From Planctomycetota bacterium (GTDB taxonomy: Bacteria > Planctomycetota > Phycisphaerae > Phycisphaerales > UBA5793), in assembly GCA_963205185.1 (NCBI GenBank), contig CAUJHZ010000023.1:1-64000 (forward strand): a DNA stretch of 64,000 nt, in the 5' to 3' direction. The translations under genes were made by a program, and so were the position numbers. Positions within the stretch are counted from its first letter, which is position 1, and each line of letters opens with the position of its first letter. The notes below the pieces were generated by a model. The model searched no databases. It had not been told where the DNA came from and was given only the letters and a program-made list of their open reading frames with translations. Shown one piece after another: positions 9,313-63,014 of the stretch.

Positions 9313-9666
9313 GTTTCTTCTCCCTCTTCTTGTTGATGGCACTTGGACCCGGGCCCAGACCCGGGCGCTGATGAGACTAATTATGCGCTCGTAAGGACAG
9401 GTATCCATGCCCGGATGGGCATTCGCTCAAGCATCTCGGTCGACACAATCGGGGATTCCACCCCCCGGCAGGCCGTCACAATCCGGACGCGGGGGCTTGC
9501 GCCTGAGCGACAACGTCTCGGTCCGAATCCACCCGTAGACCCGCCGCGCTTCACGCGACGGAGCAGGCCCGCGCCGGCGCGCGGGCCCTCTTTCTTTTCT
9601 GGTTCACATCAGGCGGTTCGCCCGATAACGCTCATCGTATCGATGCAGTGGTGAGGATGTGGGGCG
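9313..9666. other. Intergenic region with orphan plus-strand terminator
   Basis: This 354-bp gap separates the leftward secreted-protein gene from the rightward glycan operon. It contains a short palindrome (ATGCCCGGATGGGCAT, near 9408-9423), a doubled CCCGGG block near 9347-9365, and a terminator-like hairpin at 9566-9600 on the plus strand. No protein gene or tRNA is recognisable, so an unannotated small RNA is possible. Confidence 0.45.
9566..9600 (+). terminator. Terminator-like hairpin with no gene upstream
   Basis: A 9-bp GC stem (GGCCCGCGC paired with GCGCGGGCC) with loop CGGC is followed by CTCTTTCTTTTCT on the plus strand. The gene to the left runs on the opposite strand, so no annotated transcript ends here. 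It could end a small RNA or an antisense transcript, or act in the leader of the following operon. Confidence 0.55.
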
Positions 9667-11826
9667 GTGATTTCAGATTCGGTTCAATCCCGGGGGCTCG
9701 CCCTCCAGCCTGATCTGCTCAGGCGGAATCTCTCGGCGCTTCAACATCGCCACCCCGCGCTCCATCGGCTGCTCGCGTCTGTGTCCGGTGCGAGCGCGAT
9801 CGCGCGGCCCGCGCTGGCTGCTGATGGTGAGGCGACAATTGTTCATGCTGCTGACGGGTGCGAACCGGTCATCCTGTCTCCCGGCGCCCAGCCGCGCGCC
9901 GCGGCGGCGGCGATCATCGACGCCCTCGCTGATGACATCAAGCGCGGTCGGTGCCTGGCGCTGTGCGGCGTGGGGGATGGGTACGTACTCACTCGCCTCG
10001 CTGCAAAGCCGGCTCAACTTGTACTCGGCCAGCAGCAGTGCATCCACATCATCGAGCCGCACCCTGAAGTGCTCCTCGCGGCACTGATGATTCATGACTG
10101 GACCGGCTCAATGGGGCCGATCGAGGATCCACGCTTCCAGTGGTGGGTTGGGACGGACTGGGCTCCGGCGCTGCATGCGGCGCTCGAAGCGGACGCCTAT
10201 CTGCCGTTGCCCGAGCGGCCGGTTCAGCAGGGGGTCGAGGCGGAGAAGTCTGTCGCGGCCTTGCGTGAAATCATCGAGATGATTCAGTGCGGCGAGCAGC
10301 GCCTTCTCGGCCGGGCCAGGCGCCGCTATGCACGAGGTCCCAGCGATCGGATCGCGTCGATGGTGGGCGCTCGGCCTCCGCGTCAGCCGCGCGTGCTGCT
10401 GCTGACAACTCGCTTCTCGACAGTCCTGCAGCATTCCACGCGTGATCTCGCCGCCGCTTTCGAGCAGTTGGGATGGACGACGCGAATCCCCATCGAGCCC
10501 AGCGCCTATCACCGCAACTCGCAGCGCAATCTGCTGCGCCACGTCGTGGACTTCCAGCCTGATCTCGTCGTGCAGATCGATCATCTTCGGCACGAACACC
10601 GCGGGGTCTTCCCTCCCCAGCTGCCCTTTGTCTGCTGGATCCAGGATGATCTGCCCAACCTCACGAAGCGGCAGGCCGGCGCGGCCATCGGCCCGCGCGA
10701 CTTTGTCCTCACCACCACCGCCGCCGTCTACGAGCATGACTACGGCTATCCGGCGCGACAGTGCATCTACATGCCCAAGGCCACGCGCCTGCCCGATCTC
10801 GACGCCATTCCGACGCGCGAAGCGCCCGATGTCGTCTACGTCTCCAACGCCTCGGCGACGGCCGGCTCGTTGACGGATGAACTCGTCGCCGAGTGCAGCA
10901 GCCAACCCGAACTGGCCCGGCTCGTGCGGGCGTGCTGCGACGCAATCGCGGCGTGCTACGCGCGCGGGCAGAGCCTGTGCACCATCGGCGAAGTGGATGG
11001 CATCGTTCGCGGCTGCGCAGCGGAACTGAATCTCGACCTGGCCGGCGGGAGCGGGCCGGCGCGGCTGGCCATGCGCCTGTTCGCCTCGGTCAACAACGCG
11101 CTCTACCGCCAGCAGGCGCTTCAGTGGGCGGCCGCGGCGTGCGACCGGCTGGGGCTGAGCCTCGGCCTCTACGGCACGGGCTGGGACAACCATCCGACGC
11201 TGGCTCGCTTTGCGCGCGGACCGGTGCAGTACGGGGCCGAACTCGAATCGCTCACGCGCAGCGCGGCGATCAACCTGCAGGTCGTGCCCTACATGTTCCT
11301 GCACCAGCGGTGGCTCGATGGCATCGCCGCGGGCGGATTCTTCCTGGTGCGGGCACATCCGATGGATACGCTGGCGCCGGAGATTGCGGATTTCATTGAC
11401 GAGCACTTCGACGAGTCGATCGAAACGGCCACGCAGGCCGAGGCGGCGCTGAAGGGTGAGGCAAAGGAGCGCTGGCGCGAGTTGATCGAGCGCCGCCGGC
11501 GCTACGACGACCATCGCGGCACGGATCCCGTGGCGCTCTACCGCGCCCATCGCCGCGAAGGACGCGATTACATCTACGAATCGCCCGCCGATCTCGATCA
11601 GGTTCGCTTCGCGGACGGCGCGCAACTCGACGCACTGCTCGAAAGGTTCGGCCGCGATGAACCCGCGCGACGGGCGATTGCGCAGAGACAGCGCCGCTAC
11701 GTTGAGCAGCATCTGACGTATTCAGCGGGTCTCAGCCGCGTGCTGCGGCGCATCCACGAACTGCTGCAGGAAGAAGCGCGCAGTGAAAACTGCCAGCCGG
11801 AAAGGCAAGCCGCGCCGTGCGCCTGA
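9667..11826 (+). CDS. Glycosyltransferase, CgeB/DUF3880-like
   Basis: A 719-residue cytoplasmic protein. Residues about 60-250 contain an alpha/beta region (ILSPGAQPRAAAAAIIDAL, then CLALCGVGDGYVLTRL) reminiscent of the N-terminal part of DUF115 motility-accessory glycosyltransferases. Residues about 255-620 match a GT-B layout: PRVLLLTTRFSTVLQHSTRDL, PFVCWIQDDLPNL (DUF3880-like), LYGTGWDNHP and then the donor-site stretch MFLHQRWLDGIAAGGFFLVR seen in CgeB-type transferases. The start is a GTG at 9667 behind a purine-rich stretch. It is the first gene of the glycan operon, and the next gene overlaps its end by 10 nt. Donor and acceptor are unknown. Confidence 0.7.
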   Translation: MISDSVQSRGLALQPDLLRRNLSALQHRHPALHRLLASVSGASAIARPALAADGEATIVHAADGCEPVILSPGAQPRAAAAAIIDALADDIKRGRCLALCGVGDGYVLTRLAAKPAQLVLGQQQCIHIIEPHPEVLLAALMIHDWTGSMGPIEDPRFQWWVGTDWAPALHAALEADAYLPLPERPVQQGVEAEKSVAALREIIEMIQCGEQRLLGRARRRYARGPSDRIASMVGARPPRQPRVLLLTTRFSTVLQHSTRDLAAAFEQLGWTTRIPIEPSAYHRNSQRNLLRHVVDFQPDLVVQIDHLRHEHRGVFPPQLPFVCWIQDDLPNLTKRQAGAAIGPRDFVLTTTAAVYEHDYGYPARQCIYMPKATRLPDLDAIPTREAPDVVYVSNASATAGSLTDELVAECSSQPELARLVRACCDAIAACYARGQSLCTIGEVDGIVRGCAAELNLDLAGGSGPARLAMRLFASVNNALYRQQALQWAAAACDRLGLSLGLYGTGWDNHPTLARFARGPVQYGAELESLTRSAAINLQVVPYMFLHQRWLDGIAAGGFFLVRAHPMDTLAPEIADFIDEHFDESIETATQAEAALKGEAKERWRELIERRRRYDDHRGTDPVALYRAHRREGRDYIYESPADLDQVRFADGAQLDALLERFGRDEPARRAIAQRQRRYVEQHLTYSAGLSRVLRRIHELLQEEARSENCQPERQAAPCA

Positions 11827-51459: not shown

Positions 51460-52437
51460 TTACCACCCAAGTACGTACGCAAAGATGAGCGGCGCGACGA
51501 TGGTCGCGTCGGATTCGATGACGAACTTGGGCGTTTTCTCGGCGAGTTTGCCCCAGGTGATTTTTTCGTTGGGAACGGCGCCGCTGTACGAGCCGTAACT
51601 CGTGGTCGAATCGCTGATCTGGCAGAAGTAGCCCCAGAGCGGCACGCCGGTTCGCCCGAGGTCCTGGTGCAGCATCGGCACGACGCAGATGGGGAAATCG
51701 CCCGCGATGCCGCCGCCGATCTGGAAAAACCCGAGCGAGTGCTTGCCGGTCAGTTCGGTGTACCAGTTCGCCAGTTCGATCATGTAGTCGATGCCGCCGC
51801 GCATCGTCGTCGAATTCCTGATCTCGCCGGTGATGACGTGCGATGCGAAGATGTTGCCCAGCGTGGAGTCTTCCCAGCCGGGCACGAACACGGGCAGTTT
51901 CTTCTTCGCGGCGGCCAGCAGCCATGAATCCTTCGGGTCGATCTGGTAGTACTGCTCGAGTGCGCCGCTGAGCAGGACTTCGTAGAAGAATTCGTGCGGG
52001 AACATCCGCCGCCCGGCCTTGTCTGACTTGAGCCAGTGGTCGAGCACCGCGCCTTCGAGGCGACGGATCGCTTCCTCTTCCGGAATGCACGTGTCGGTCA
52101 CGCGATTGAGGTGCCGCTCGAGAAGTTGCTGCTCGTCGGCGGGCGTGAGTTGCCGGTAGTGGGGGATGCGCACGTAGTGCTCGTGCGCGACGAGGTTGAA
52201 GATGTCCTCCTCAAGATTCGCTCCCGTGCAGCAGATGCCGTGCACCTTGTCCTGGCGGATCATCTCCGCCAGCGACACGCCCAGTTCCGCCGTGCTCATC
52301 GCCCCCGCGAGCGTGATGAACATTTTGCCGCCGCCGTCGAGGTGCTTGCGGTACGCCTCGGCGGCATCGACGAGCGCTGCGGCGTTGAAGTGGCGGTAGT
52401 GCGTGCGGATGAAATCGCTGATCGGCGTGCTGCTCAT
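51460..52437 (-). CDS. Deoxyhypusine-synthase-like protein
   Basis: A 325-residue enzyme of the deoxyhypusine synthase family. FITLAGAMSTAELG, ICCTGANLEEDIFN, FVPGWEDSTLGNIFASH and the C-terminal ITWGKL with Lys297 match the NAD- and substrate-binding motifs; this Lys forms the imine with the butylamine group in eukaryotic enzymes. Bacteria lack eIF5A, so bacterial homologues probably make homospermidine or modify another target. No polyamine gene is adjacent. The start has no ribosome-binding site; TATCCT lies 5 nt upstream. Confidence 0.85.
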   Translation of the reverse strand: MSSTPISDFIRTHYRHFNAAALVDAAEAYRKHLDGGGKMFITLAGAMSTAELGVSLAEMIRQDKVHGICCTGANLEEDIFNLVAHEHYVRIPHYRQLTPADEQQLLERHLNRVTDTCIPEEEAIRRLEGAVLDHWLKSDKAGRRMFPHEFFYEVLLSGALEQYYQIDPKDSWLLAAAKKKLPVFVPGWEDSTLGNIFASHVITGEIRNSTTMRGGIDYMIELANWYTELTGKHSLGFFQIGGGIAGDFPICVVPMLHQDLGRTGVPLWGYFCQISDSTTSYGSYSGAVPNEKITWGKLAEKTPKFVIESDATIVAPLIFAYVLGW

Positions 52438-52540: not shown

Positions 52541-53683
52541 CTACTCCACCAGCGCCGCCTCAATCGTCAGACCAGGTCCGAACGCGATCGCGACCATCGG
52601 CCGCGGCGCTTCGCGGCGCAACAGTTCATCGAGAATGAACAGAACCGTCGGCGAGGACATGTTGCCGAATCGCGCCAGCACCTCGCGCGAGGCCCGCAGC
52701 GCCGCGGGCGGCAGGTCCAGCGCTGCCGTGAAGGCGTCGAGAATGCGCGGCCCGCCGGGGTGCACCGCCCACGATCCCACATCGTCGATCGCCAGGCCCC
52801 GCCGCGCCAGCCACTGCTCCATCCACGGCCGGGTGGACTCGCGAATCCGCCCCGGCACATCGAGCGACAGGCGCATCTCAAAGCCGTGATCGCCGATGCT
52901 CCACGACATGCATTCGCGCGAATCCGGCGCGACGACGGAGGCGAAGTCGGCAAGCGCCAGCGGCGACCACGTCGGGCGTGAAGCGTGGTTGGACACCACC
53001 GCCGCCGCGGCGCCGTCGGCAAAGAGCGCGTTGGCCAGCAGGTGATCGCCATCGCCCCGATACTGGAAGTGCACGCTGCACAGTTCGACGCACACCACCA
53101 GCGCGGCCGCATCCTCCTGGGCCCGGCAGGCATCGCCCGCCAGGCGCAGCGCGTTGATCGCGGCGTGGCAGCCCATGAAGCCGATGTTCGTGCGCTTGAC
53201 GCCGCGCGGCAGGTCGAGTTCATCGATCAGGGCAATGTCCACTCCGGGCGCCTGCATCCCGGTGCACGAGACGGTGAGCAGGTGCGTGATGCGCGATGCA
53301 TCGCACCCGGCCTGCGCCAGCGCGTTGTCCGCGGCCTGCGCCGCCAGGCGGCTTGCCCAGAGGTTGTAGACCGCCAGGCGCTGAGCCGTGCTCGGGCCGA
53401 GGTCATCGTCGTGCAGTCGCGGCGGAAAGAAGGGCACGACGGGCTCGTCCGTGTGGATCGCAGCGCGGCCGTTGCGGGCACCACGCACGCTTGGCGCCGG
53501 GGCCGAGTCTGCGGCTACGACGAACTGGCGCCGGTCCACTCCGCTGTGCTCGAAAAGACGCCGCAGCCGATCTGCTTCTTCGGCCGTCGCGGCGCAACAC
53601 TGTTCGGCCAGGCGCAGGGCTTCGGCCTGATCGAGGCCGCCCGGCGGCGTAGCCAGCCCGATACCGGTCACCCGCGGCGTCAT
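52541..53683 (-). CDS. Type III polyketide synthase
   Basis: A 380-residue chalcone-synthase-like enzyme with the complete Cys172-His308-Asn341 triad (GFMGCHAAINAL, VHPGGPRIL, FGNMSSPTVLFIL). It condenses malonyl-CoA onto an acyl starter to give a polyketide that cyclises, for example to an alkylresorcinol or alkylpyrone. A GVDRRQ motif and LTVSCTGMQAPG are typical of bacterial members. The ATG overlaps the stop of the upstream FAD oxidoreductase (4 nt). It is the last gene of a three-gene operon. Confidence 0.92.
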   Translation of the reverse strand: MTPRVTGIGLATPPGGLDQAEALRLAEQCCAATAEEADRLRRLFEHSGVDRRQFVVAADSAPAPSVRGARNGRAAIHTDEPVVPFFPPRLHDDDLGPSTAQRLAVYNLWASRLAAQAADNALAQAGCDASRITHLLTVSCTGMQAPGVDIALIDELDLPRGVKRTNIGFMGCHAAINALRLAGDACRAQEDAAALVVCVELCSVHFQYRGDGDHLLANALFADGAAAAVVSNHASRPTWSPLALADFASVVAPDSRECMSWSIGDHGFEMRLSLDVPGRIRESTRPWMEQWLARRGLAIDDVGSWAVHPGGPRILDAFTAALDLPPAALRASREVLARFGNMSSPTVLFILDELLRREAPRPMVAIAFGPGLTIEAALVE

Positions 53684-54900
53684 GCGCTGCCTCGCGCCGG
53701 CGCCGCGCCGCTCATGATGACCGAAGTCGGACCGTGCACAAGGTTGACCACGAATCGCGACAGTTGCGGCCACGCGCGGCCGAGTCTCATGCAGCCGGAC
53801 TGCAGCAGACCGTGACGGAGGGCTTCGGCGATGACCCGGCATCGCCGCTGCCGCGCGGCAATGAACGCTGCGTGCGATCGCGTCCATTGCGTCTCCATCG
53901 CCGTACACCACGGCACGGCATCGCGCTTGAGAAAATCCACAGCGAGTGCGGCCGCAGCCCGCGCGCTCCCGACCGCCCACGCGATGCCCTCGCCGGTGAA
54001 TGGCTCGACGAACCCGGCCGCATCACCGATCGCCAGCACGCGCTGCCCGGCGATGCGCTGCGGCCGCCTGGTCAATTCCGGTGCGCCCAGCCATCGTGCT
54101 GAGGCGAGATCAGCCGGAGGCGCCTGCGCGCATTCTTCGAACACTTCCGCAGCCGCTGCCCCCAATCCGAGCGTGCGGACGCGCGGCGGGTCGAGCGCCC
54201 CGGCCACCGCGATGCGCCCGTCTTCGATGCGAGCCAGCCCCACGTACCCGTGCGCGCCCACCATCATCCGCACGGCGCCTGCTGGAAGATCGATTTCGGT
54301 TCCCGCGACAATGGTCGCCGCACCCAGCCGCGAGCGGCGCCACGGGCGGTCGAGGGGGCGCGCTCTGCCCGGGCCGCTGTCGAAGGAAAACCCAAGTCCG
54401 CCCGCGGCGATCACGAGTCTCGCCTTCGCGTGGAAATTGCTTCCCTCCGCTTTGAGCCGCACATGGCGGTACAGGTCATCCGGGGCGGTGACGCTTGCGA
54501 GACAGCGCGGCAGGAAGGCCGCGCCCGCGAGTATTGCCTCCTCGACCAAAGCCGCGTCAAACCGCCGCCGCGACAGCACCCGCCCCGGCGGCAGAGGCAC
54601 TTCGAGCGCCTGCCCCGCCGAACGGAGATCGAAGCGATCCATCGGTGCGGCGCCATGGTGATCCAGCAGGTGCGCCAGATCGAGCCTGGCCAGTGCGGCG
54701 ATGGCGGATGCAGCTACGCAGCACCCGCACGTCTTCTCGCGGGGAAACACCGCCCGATCGACGAGCAGCACTTCAAACCCCGCGCGGGCGAGCAGTATCG
54801 CCGCCACGCTCCCCGCGGGACCGGCGCCGATGACGATCGCATCCCACGGCGACCGGGCCGCGTCGCCTGCCGCGATGGTACAGTGGAGCGCGCCGGGCAT
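53680..54900 (-). CDS. FAD-dependent oxidoreductase, geranylgeranyl-reductase-like
   Basis: A 406-residue flavoprotein with an N-terminal FAD site (VIGAGPAGS, about 24-31), a conserved ARAGFEVLLVDRAVFPREKTCG region and the distal GDAAGFVEPFTGEGIAWAV motif. This is the geranylgeranyl reductase / PHBH-like monooxygenase superfamily. In phenolic-lipid operons such an enzyme hydroxylates the resorcinol ring, so a hydroxylase acting on the polyketide is the likeliest role; a reductase of isoprenoid double bonds is the alternative. The ATG shares an A with the stop of the upstream methyltransferase (TGATG). Confidence 0.85.
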   Translation of the reverse strand: MPGALHCTIAAGDAARSPWDAIVIGAGPAGSVAAILLARAGFEVLLVDRAVFPREKTCGCCVAASAIAALARLDLAHLLDHHGAAPMDRFDLRSAGQALEVPLPPGRVLSRRRFDAALVEEAILAGAAFLPRCLASVTAPDDLYRHVRLKAEGSNFHAKARLVIAAGGLGFSFDSGPGRARPLDRPWRRSRLGAATIVAGTEIDLPAGAVRMMVGAHGYVGLARIEDGRIAVAGALDPPRVRTLGLGAAAAEVFEECAQAPPADLASARWLGAPELTRRPQRIAGQRVLAIGDAAGFVEPFTGEGIAWAVGSARAAAALAVDFLKRDAVPWCTAMETQWTRSHAAFIAARQRRCRVIAEALRHGLLQSGCMRLGRAWPQLSRFVVNLVHGPTSVIMSGAAPARGSA

Positions 54901-55628
54901 CACGCCACGACCTTGTTGCAGGTGAGCAGAAAGCGGAACGGCCAGGCGCGCTGCACCTGCGCGCGGTTCCACCCGGCCTGCCGGGCGAGTTGGGTCGCTT
55001 CGTTTATGGTGAACGCCGCGCGCACCGAGCGCGGCCCGTCGGCGTGCACGACCGGCGAGCGCGTGAGCGCATGCGCAGCAATCTGCGTGAGCCACAGGCC
55101 GCGCGAGCATCGTCGCAGATCGCTGACGACGACCAGCCGCAGCGCCGCCGCGTGCATCATCTCGAGCAGTTGAATCGCCTGCGCCTCGTCGAGGTGATGC
55201 AGGAAAAGCGAGCACATGACGACGTCGAACTCGCCCGTCGGCCACGGATCTCGAAACACATCGCAGCGGCGAAAGTCGATGGTCTCGCCGACCGCGTCGG
55301 CTCGCTTGCGGCCGTGCGCGATCGCGTGCGCGTTGACATCGACAGCGGTGAACTGGACGTCGAGATCGACGCTCGCGGCCCGCTCGGTCAGCGCCAGCGG
55401 CAGATCGCCGGCGCCGGTGGCGATGTCGAGTACGCGGCAGGTCTTCCCGGGCATGCTTCTTGCGACCTCGCAGATCGCCGGCCAGACGATCCGCGCGCTG
55501 CCGGACCAGCGGTTGAGTCGCGCCAGCGCCTTGAGCGCCCGCTCGTGCAGCGATGGATCGAGGCCCGGCTGGTCCATCCACTCCGGCTCGCGATGTCGCT
55601 GTCGCAGATTGGGCGCGAGCGTGCTCAC
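54900..55628 (-). CDS. Class I SAM-dependent methyltransferase of the PKS operon
   Basis: A 242-residue enzyme with motif I VLDIATGAGDLPLAL, DVQFTAVDVNAHAIAHGR and the FDVVMCSLFLHHLDE strand, similar to UbiE/MenG-like methyltransferases. I chose the GTG at 55628, which has TACCAT 5 nt before it; an ATG at 55577 would shorten it by 17 residues. It is the first gene of the operon with the FAD enzyme and the type III PKS, and probably O- or C-methylates their product. Confidence 0.85.
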   Translation of the reverse strand: MSTLAPNLRQRHREPEWMDQPGLDPSLHERALKALARLNRWSGSARIVWPAICEVARSMPGKTCRVLDIATGAGDLPLALTERAASVDLDVQFTAVDVNAHAIAHGRKRADAVGETIDFRRCDVFRDPWPTGEFDVVMCSLFLHHLDEAQAIQLLEMMHAAALRLVVVSDLRRCSRGLWLTQIAAHALTRSPVVHADGPRSVRAAFTINEATQLARQAGWNRAQVQRAWPFRFLLTCNKVVA

Positions 55629-55633
55629 ACCCG

Positions 55634-55639
55634 ATGGTA
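55634..55639 (-). promoter_or_regulatory. Possible -10 element of the type III PKS operon
   Basis: TACCAT on the minus strand ends 5 nt before the GTG start of the methyltransferase. It overlaps the control region of the divergent prenyltransferase gene. Confidence 0.35.
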
Positions 55640-55667
55640 GGTGAACGGCGACGCGGCGCTCGCGGGC

Positions 55668-55673
55668 TACGAT
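55668..55673 (+). promoter_or_regulatory. Possible -10 element of the UbiA-family gene
   Basis: TACGAT ends 6 nt before the ATG at 55680, which lacks a ribosome-binding site. This favours that ATG over the GTG at 55641. Confidence 0.35.
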
Positions 55674-55679
55674 TCGCCG

Positions 55680-56618
55680 ATGGTTTCTGCGGCACCAGCC
55701 ACCTCGCTCACTGATTCCCCAGGTCCGGCCGCGTCGCTCAAGGCGCTGGCGGCAGACATCAAACTCAGCCATAGTCTTTTTGCCCTGCCCTTCGCGCTTC
55801 TCGCCGCCTTCATGGTCAGGCCCAGTGACGGCGCGTGGTCCCGCTTTGCCGGGCAGATGGCCCTGATTGTCGTCTGCATGGTCAGCGCCCGCACGTTCGC
55901 CATGCTCGCCAACCGCATCATCGACCGCGACATCGATGCGCTCAACCCGCGCACCAGCGGGCGGGCCCTGCCCAGCGGCCGCGTCGCCCTGCGGCACGCG
56001 CGCATGGCCCTGCTCTGGGCGGCGGGAATCTTCATCGTCTGCTGCATCGCGTTCGGCTTTGTCTTCGACAACTGGTGGCCGACGGTGCTGTCAATCCCCG
56101 TGCTCGCGTGGATCGGCTCGTACGGCTGGCTCAAGCGCTGGACGTGGATGTGCCACGCGTTTCTTGGTTCATCGCTGGCGATTTCGCCGCTCGCTGCCGC
56201 GCTCGCCATTGAGCCGTCCGCTCTCGCGGCGCAACCGGCGCTGTGGCTGCTCAGCCTCAACGTGCTCTGCTGGGTGGCGGGCTTTGATGTGGTCTACGCC
56301 CTGCAGGATGTGCAGATCGATCGGCAGCAGCGGCTCCACAGCATGCCCAGCCGCCTCGGCGTCGGCCCGGCGCTCTGGATCAGCCGGCTGCTGCACGCAA
56401 TCAGCGCCGGTTCGCTTATCTCGATCGTCATCATCGACGCCCGCTTCGGCGCGCTCTTCGCCACTGGCGTGGGCGTGGTCATCGTGCTGCTCATGGTCGA
56501 GCATGCCGTTACGGCGGGCGGAGCGACGGGCCGCATCCAACTGGCGTTCTTCACCCTCAACGGCGTGATCAGTTGCCTCCTTGGCGCCTTGGGAATTGCC
56601 AGCGTGGTGATGCACTGA
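55680..56618 (+). CDS. UbiA-family prenyltransferase
   Basis: A 312-residue integral membrane enzyme with eight or nine membrane segments. The two Asp-rich motifs are NRIIDRDIDALNPRTSGR (from residue 78) and DVVYALQDVQIDRQQRLHSMPSRLG, which bind Mg-prenyl diphosphate. The sequence fits 4-hydroxybenzoate-type polyprenyltransferases and MqnP-like enzymes of menaquinone synthesis. It is divergent from the type III PKS operon with about 50 bp between, so it could also prenylate the polyketide. A GTG at 55641 would add 13 residues. Confidence 0.85.
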   Translation: MVSAAPATSLTDSPGPAASLKALAADIKLSHSLFALPFALLAAFMVRPSDGAWSRFAGQMALIVVCMVSARTFAMLANRIIDRDIDALNPRTSGRALPSGRVALRHARMALLWAAGIFIVCCIAFGFVFDNWWPTVLSIPVLAWIGSYGWLKRWTWMCHAFLGSSLAISPLAAALAIEPSALAAQPALWLLSLNVLCWVAGFDVVYALQDVQIDRQQRLHSMPSRLGVGPALWISRLLHAISAGSLISIVIIDARFGALFATGVGVVIVLLMVEHAVTAGGATGRIQLAFFTLNGVISCLLGALGIASVVMH

Positions 56619-62141: not shown

Positions 62142-63014
62142 ATGATGAAACGCAACCAAGCCTTGTTCGCGATCGTGGGAATGGGCCTTCTCGCGCCAAC
62201 GGGCGCACTGCTGGCTCAGGAGGCTCCTCCGGACACGCTCGAACTGTCGGGCGTCGTCCGCGACTTTATTGAGCGCACCAAGAACGGCGGCCACCCCGAC
62301 TTCGAAGCGGTGCCCGCCGGCGGCTACGGCCACTACATGGGCAACATCTCGTCCATGCTCGACGAGGAGCGCAAGCCGGTCTTCGTCGGCGGCGGCCACA
62401 AGGTGCTCAGCCAGTGGCGCAACTCAGCGGGCCAGGCCATTCTGCCCGCGCTCTACGACCACTCGATGGGCGACACCGCAGGCAGTCTGAGTTCGACCGT
62501 AGACAAGGGCGGCATCACCTCCGCCGAGTCGTTTGCGCAGTGGTACCGCGACGTGCCGGGCCTCAACCTCAGCCAGCCCATCACCGTCACCCTGACCAAG
62601 TCGGGCGGCACCGAAGAGATGCCCATCTACACCTACCAGAACAACTCGTTCTTCCCGCTCGACCACCAGTTGTACGGCAACTCGGGCGGCTCGCCGGACC
62701 ACAACTTCCACTTCACCATGGAGCTGCGCACGAAGTTCACCTACAAGGAAGGCGCCGGCCAGGTCTTCTCCTTCTACGGCGACGACGACGTGTGGGTGTT
62801 CATCAACGGTGAACTCGTCATTGACATCGGCGGCGTGCACGGCAAGGTCAACCAGGTGGTCGAACTCGACCGCCTCGACCTGACCGACGGCCAGCTCTGC
62901 ACGCTGGACTTCTTCTTCGCCGAACGTCACCGCACCGAGTCCAACTTCCGGATCGATACGACCCTCCAACTCGAATCGGACACCATGCCGACCGTCAGCG
63001 CTCTGTACGACTGA
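62142..63014 (+). CDS. Secreted fibro-slime domain protein
   Basis: A 290-residue exported protein with a signal peptide ending at LLAQ. The mature protein is one fibro-slime domain: LSGVVRDFIERTKNGGHPDFE at the start, then GQVFSFYGDDDVWVFINGELVIDIGGVHG and LDFFFAERHRTESNFRIDT. The domain is PA14-like and found in surface adhesins of Fibrobacter, slime moulds and Planctomycetota. A GGAAGGA ribosome-binding site precedes the ATG. The gene ends at a strong terminator and is probably monocistronic. A role in adhesion or glycan binding is likely. Confidence 0.88.
   Translation: MMKRNQALFAIVGMGLLAPTGALLAQEAPPDTLELSGVVRDFIERTKNGGHPDFEAVPAGGYGHYMGNISSMLDEERKPVFVGGGHKVLSQWRNSAGQAILPALYDHSMGDTAGSLSSTVDKGGITSAESFAQWYRDVPGLNLSQPITVTLTKSGGTEEMPIYTYQNNSFFPLDHQLYGNSGGSPDHNFHFTMELRTKFTYKEGAGQVFSFYGDDDVWVFINGELVIDIGGVHGKVNQVVELDRLDLTDGQLCTLDFFFAERHRTESNFRIDTTLQLESDTMPTVSALYD

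Follow-up and report, generated by a model that had tools for sequence, protein, structure and literature searches.

The question raised by this locus is whether a UbiA-family prenyltransferase gene, transcribed divergently from a type III polyketide synthase (PKS) operon, belongs to the same pathway as the operon. The genes lie in a window of 64,000 nucleotides of a planctomycete of the order Phycisphaerales (contig CAUJHZ010000023.1, positions 1 to 64,000). The first-pass annotation of this window suggested that the four genes together could make a methylated, hydroxylated and perhaps prenylated resorcinol or quinone lipid. Our analysis makes it highly probable that the locus is a planctomycetal alkylresorcinol operon of the hidABC-like kind with an adjacent UbiA gene that is MqnP. 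The features of the region are the following.

51460–52437, minus strand: deoxyhypusine-synthase-like gene, flanking the operon on the side opposite UbiA; PF01916 over cut-off
52541–53683, minus strand: type III PKS, 380 aa, encoded last in the operon; Pfam PF00195/PF02797 (Chal_sti_synt_N/C) over cut-off
53680–54900, minus strand: FAD-dependent oxidoreductase, 406 aa, in the HidB position; GxGxxG and PRxKxCGxC motifs, no WxWxIP
54900–55628, minus strand: class I SAM-dependent methyltransferase, 242 aa, in the HidA position; GTG start; Methyltransf_25 (PF13649) over cut-off, PRK06202-like
55629–55679, no strand: divergent control region of 51 bp between the methyltransferase and UbiA genes
55680–56618, plus strand: UbiA-family prenyltransferase, 312 aa; UbiA Pfam and TIGR01475 over cut-off; assigned as MqnP

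All four genes are present at the positions given to them by the first-pass annotation, and the family searches agree with its naming except for the family membership of the FAD protein. The methyltransferase, FAD oxidoreductase and PKS genes follow each other in this order, all co-directional on the minus strand, with an overlap of 1 nt (TGATG) between the methyltransferase and FAD genes and of 4 nt (ATGA) between the FAD and PKS genes. The arrangement of operon and UbiA is kept in four species of the genus, and the pairwise dN/dS of the three operon genes (0.16–0.38) points to purifying selection; therefore the operon genes are real and functional and not chance open reading frames. By protein identity the FAD protein is the fastest-evolving member of the block. 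By far the most constrained one is the bacterial deoxyhypusine-synthase-like gene (dN/dS 0.02–0.08), the product of which scores under every curated NCBIfam cut-off. Composition is uninformative about a recent foreign origin of the operon: its genes are slightly high in GC (0.69–0.71 against 0.65) and ordinary in GC3. Farther along the window, a protein with a PA14 domain and an exported look is encoded at 62142–63014 (plus strand).

Operons of this kind are known among planctomycetes. A survey of 131 genomes of the phylum by Milke et al. (2024; PMC10896814) yielded 96 type III PKS genes; at 58 of these 96 loci the PKS stands last in an operon after a methyltransferase and an FAD-dependent oxidoreductase, an order likened by the authors to that of cyanobacterial hidABC (hierridin). 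PKSs of such operons produced pentadecyl- and heptadecylresorcinols (C15/C17) upon expression in C. glutamicum; with the methyltransferase and oxidoreductase of G. maris (mtr+fdo) added, the product carried one methyl group, probably bound to carbon (PMC10896814). The role of the oxidoreductase was left open in that work, and the genes flanking the operon were conserved no further than close relatives. The idea that such a product is not described in this phylum is thus superseded, since the 2024 study described this operon in Planctomycetota and tested part of it.

The present locus shares with the operon of Milke et al. (e.g. Gimesia maris PM8797T_03249/03244) the three genes, including the FAD enzyme and the methyltransferase, their order with the PKS last, the phylum, and flanks that are unconserved past close relatives. 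It differs in its host order, Phycisphaerales, in the class of which type III PKS genes have a smaller share according to these authors, and in its divergent MqnP neighbour. It also differs in the FAD protein of the genus, where the ADG motif reads AGG: Gly replaces the Asp that is kept by 37 of 56 relatives. The gene order is the same at 24 of 29 related loci, and among these 29 a UbiA gene was found in the flanks (up to 8 kb) only at that of a congener (L002). A variant layout occurs at another locus (L012, 6616–9588), where the PKS is convergent with the methyltransferase–FAD pair and is not last in one operon.

The likeness to hidABC (hierridin B, Cyanobium sp. LEGE 06113) rests on the order of the genes and on the classes of the three enzymes; the differences are the other phylum and the O-methyl groups made by HidA. 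With srsABC (Streptomyces phenolic lipids), which was the model chosen in the first-pass annotation, the locus shares the three reaction classes, i.e. type III PKS, methyltransferase and flavoprotein. The srsABC order is PKS, methyltransferase, flavin hydroxylase, with the PKS first and not last, so the order rules out an srs-type operon here, and srs is not the nearest relative. The proposed resemblance to phenolic-lipid operons therefore holds at the level of an alkylresorcinol class with a methyltransferase and a flavoprotein, the closest model being hidABC instead of srsABC.

The catalytic triad of the PKS (Cys173/His309/Asn342; numbering of a 381-residue query that begins one residue ahead of the ATG) is intact in alignments with the best-matching PDB entries, 1ted (PKS18, aligned over the catalytic domain) and 7cb3 (a chalcone/stilbene synthase); across 61 relatives the triad columns reach a conservation of 95% or more. 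The identity to PKSs of the phylum outside the genus is about 39–51%. Deep nodes of the PKS tree are not resolved, so no donor can be named. Most likely, the PKS would load a long fatty acyl starter and extend it by three malonyl units, which an aldol condensation would close to a 5-alkylresorcinol. The methyltransferase may then methylate either the ring itself or its hydroxyl groups, and oxidation of the ring, probably a hydroxylation, would fall to the FAD enzyme; the order of these two steps and their positions on the ring are presumed.

The methyltransferase is modelled with confidence as a class I fold (pLDDT 94.1). Its nearest folds according to Foldseek include CysG/BelI, NovO, CouO and Coq5, and in this list C-methyltransferases (NovO, CouO, Coq5) are mixed with other kinds, so that C-methylation is not to be told from O-methylation by this structure. 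The AlphaFold model of the FAD protein (pLDDT 87.5) finds its best Foldseek matches in FasV, 3nix (an uncharacterised flavoprotein), the flavin halogenases PltA/Bmp2/PltM, PqsL and QhpG. By sequence the best match is GG-red-SF (TIGR02032) with 116.9 bits, below the cut-off of 158.8 bits. The earlier description as "geranylgeranyl-reductase-like" is thus fair as to resemblance and shared fold, and membership in the geranylgeranyl reductase family is rejected. A flavin halogenase was considered as well: hierridin C is chlorinated, and the fold matches include PltM and Bmp2. Despite this, the halogenase motif WxWxIP is missing in all 56 members of the FAD family, which makes a classical halogenase unlikely; the PRxKxCGxC motif is present in 51 of the 56. 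Hierridin B is hydroxylated at position 4 according to Milke et al. (PMC10896814), and by this analogy ring hydroxylation would be the most likely role of the FAD protein.

The UbiA protein scores 216.4 bits with TIGR01475 (cut-off 180.8). With the NCBIfam MqnP models NF041584/5/6, which are of the "exception" type and named after lineages, it scores 163–187 bits against cut-offs of 375–430, the best clade-specific score being 186.7 versus 375 bits. MqnP itself was predicted, as the UbiA-like polyprenyltransferase of the futalosine pathway, by the same logic of co-occurrence that was used here (PMC4746308). The distribution of UbiA, Mqn and PKS genes was compared across a single set of 121 Phycisphaerales genomes. 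An orthologue of UbiA is found in 105 of them (one fragment match of 22 bits was scored as absent), and the radical-SAM enzymes of the futalosine pathway, MqnC/MqnE, found jointly with the MqnC model, in 107 (two very weak matches were excluded). Both are present in 105 genomes and neither in 14; two draft genomes have Mqn only, and none has UbiA only. The Fisher test gives 1.6e-16, a value uncorrected for shared ancestry, the losses lying in two families (f3 and f6). The PKS is distributed otherwise, being present in 50 of the 105 genomes with UbiA and in 11 of the 16 without it (p = 0.18).

Exactly 13 genomes have a MenD above the cut-off, and each of them is one of the 14 that lack Mqn. These 13, without Mqn and UbiA, are G002, G006, G036, G044, G047, G050, G059, G071, G080, G086, G089, G104 and G107. 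Within the order the menaquinone routes are thus strictly either/or, nearly all the remaining genomes having Mqn and no true MenD, and the route was switched at least twice (families f3 and f6). One assembly (G095) has neither Mqn nor MenD.

In four relatives a UbiX-family gene adjoins UbiA, and in a fifth MqnE lies ~4 kb away from it. At one UbiA locus (L112 of G003, 9647–11194, minus strand) a UbiX-family domain forms the C-terminal end of a 515-aa frame beside UbiA; it is possible that this is a fusion or merely an over-long open frame. In the host genome MqnE passes its cut-off with 440 bits, and an MqnC-like protein scores 397 bits against a cut-off of 428. A UbiD, a UbiX and a single protein of the MqnA/MqnD family (PF02621) were also found there; a search of this genome for MenD found none. 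The mqn genes of the host are scattered, and UbiA stands alone, away from them. Its four other UbiA-superfamily genes are of other types (heme o synthase, two EboC/SCO3242-like and one decaprenyl-phosphate phosphoribosyltransferase-like), so no other gene found in the host could prenylate menaquinone. The first-pass annotation had raised a separate menaquinone cluster that would need the UbiA gene. The host has MqnE, the MqnC-like protein and a single quinone-type UbiA; an mqn cluster containing UbiA is not found. In comparison with MqnP (PMC4746308), the protein agrees in its TIGR01475 membership, its occurrence only where Mqn genes are, and UbiX-family neighbours in relatives, and it differs in scoring under the three clade-specific NCBIfam cut-offs and in its location away from the mqn genes in the host. 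The UbiA gene almost certainly encodes MqnP, the polyprenyltransferase of the futalosine pathway, which would act on a dihydroxynaphthoate or naphthol intermediate, and is a neighbour of the operon by chance.

The adjacency of UbiA and PKS is limited to four species of one genus, and elsewhere the two are independent. Conservation of the four-gene neighbourhood is accordingly confirmed in these four species and does not extend to other relatives. A congener (G024) has UbiA and the deoxyhypusine-synthase-like gene directly adjacent with a gap of at most 160 bp. This gap can be aligned with the flank on either side of the operon, scoring 82 and 76 (shuffle maxima 54 and 51), the alignments including some coding sequence of the gene ends. 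No PKS and no methyltransferase match was found anywhere in this congener, and its FAD-protein match reaches only 31 bits, like the second matches in relatives. In the UbiA tree it is sister to the four operon-bearing species (94/81), and a sister genus (G014) has kept UbiA with the PKS absent. With the host family sampled by six genomes, these positions make a single gain of the operon in the four species a little simpler than its loss, loss in G024 being possible. Under both scenarios UbiA is retained where the operon is absent. In part of the genus the operon sits between UbiA and the deoxyhypusine-synthase-like gene, which is why UbiA adjoins it.

The shared divergent control region, estimated earlier at about 50 bp, measures 51 bp. 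A -10-like box, TACGAT, is located six to eight nucleotides ahead of the UbiA ATG in the four species, and a TACCAT-like -10 (a TAnnAT-like box in the four species) lies just ahead of the methyltransferase GTG. Both TACGAT and GATnnTAGGTGnACnGC are conserved in the region in the four species; TACGAT directly before UbiA is also kept in the operon-free congener. A generic sigma-70 scan of the control region found no promoter. The short distance of a few nucleotides between the boxes and each start codon suggests leaderless transcripts on both sides, and judging by conservation the region probably holds two facing promoters, both with leaderless transcripts.

The appeal of a common pathway, in which UbiA would add a prenyl group to the alkylresorcinol after its methylation and hydroxylation and so give a quinone lipid or meroterpenoid, lies in the divergent position over 51 bp, kept in four species of the genus, and in one hierridin-like cyanobacterial cluster reported with a prenyltransferase (PMC8086630). 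However, this adjacency is confined to a single genus, UbiA is present and the PKS absent in a congener and in the sister genus, UbiA never occurs without Mqn, over two thirds of the genomes lacking UbiA carry the PKS, and the host has no other gene that could act as menaquinone prenyltransferase. A prenylated four-gene cluster is rejected on the distribution and on the operon-free site, and we regard it as very improbable. The first-pass view of UbiA as a part of the PKS pathway is abandoned accordingly: in relatives UbiA associates with menaquinone genes, and the PKS operon is found without UbiA and vice versa. It would be most surprising if MqnP moonlighted in this genus by prenylating the hydroxylated alkylresorcinol, to give a prenylated phenolic lipid coregulated with menaquinone via the shared 51-bp region.

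As to the product of the operon, the PKS could be an alkylpyrone synthase like PKS18/ArsC, the operon then making modified alkylpyrones instead of resorcinols. By sequence, PKS18, an alkylpyrone synthase (PMC8086630), is indeed the nearest enzyme of solved structure, and the triad alone does not reveal the product type. In other planctomycetes, PKSs belonging to this three-gene operon nevertheless make alkylresorcinols (PMC10896814), and alkylpyrones appear unlikely. A respiratory role, with the oxidised product as a polyketide quinone replacing or supplementing menaquinone, would draw on the oxidisable ring given by a hydroxylated resorcinol and on mycobacterial polyketide quinones, described as alternate electron carriers in the title of a work that PMC10896814 cites. 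Against this, the PKS is independent of the menaquinone route (51 of the 107 Mqn genomes, 10 of the 14 others), and a menaquinone route of one or the other kind is present in genomes with and without the PKS; there seems to be very little chance of such a role.

The alkylresorcinol operon with MqnP as its neighbour thus adds a Phycisphaerales genus to the known planctomycetal alkylresorcinol operons. The four-gene reading is tempting but wrong: the adjacency reflects the position of the operon, and the neighbouring UbiA serves respiration. With four operon-bearing species and one operon-free site, the genus provides a clean natural comparison for the function of phenolic lipids.
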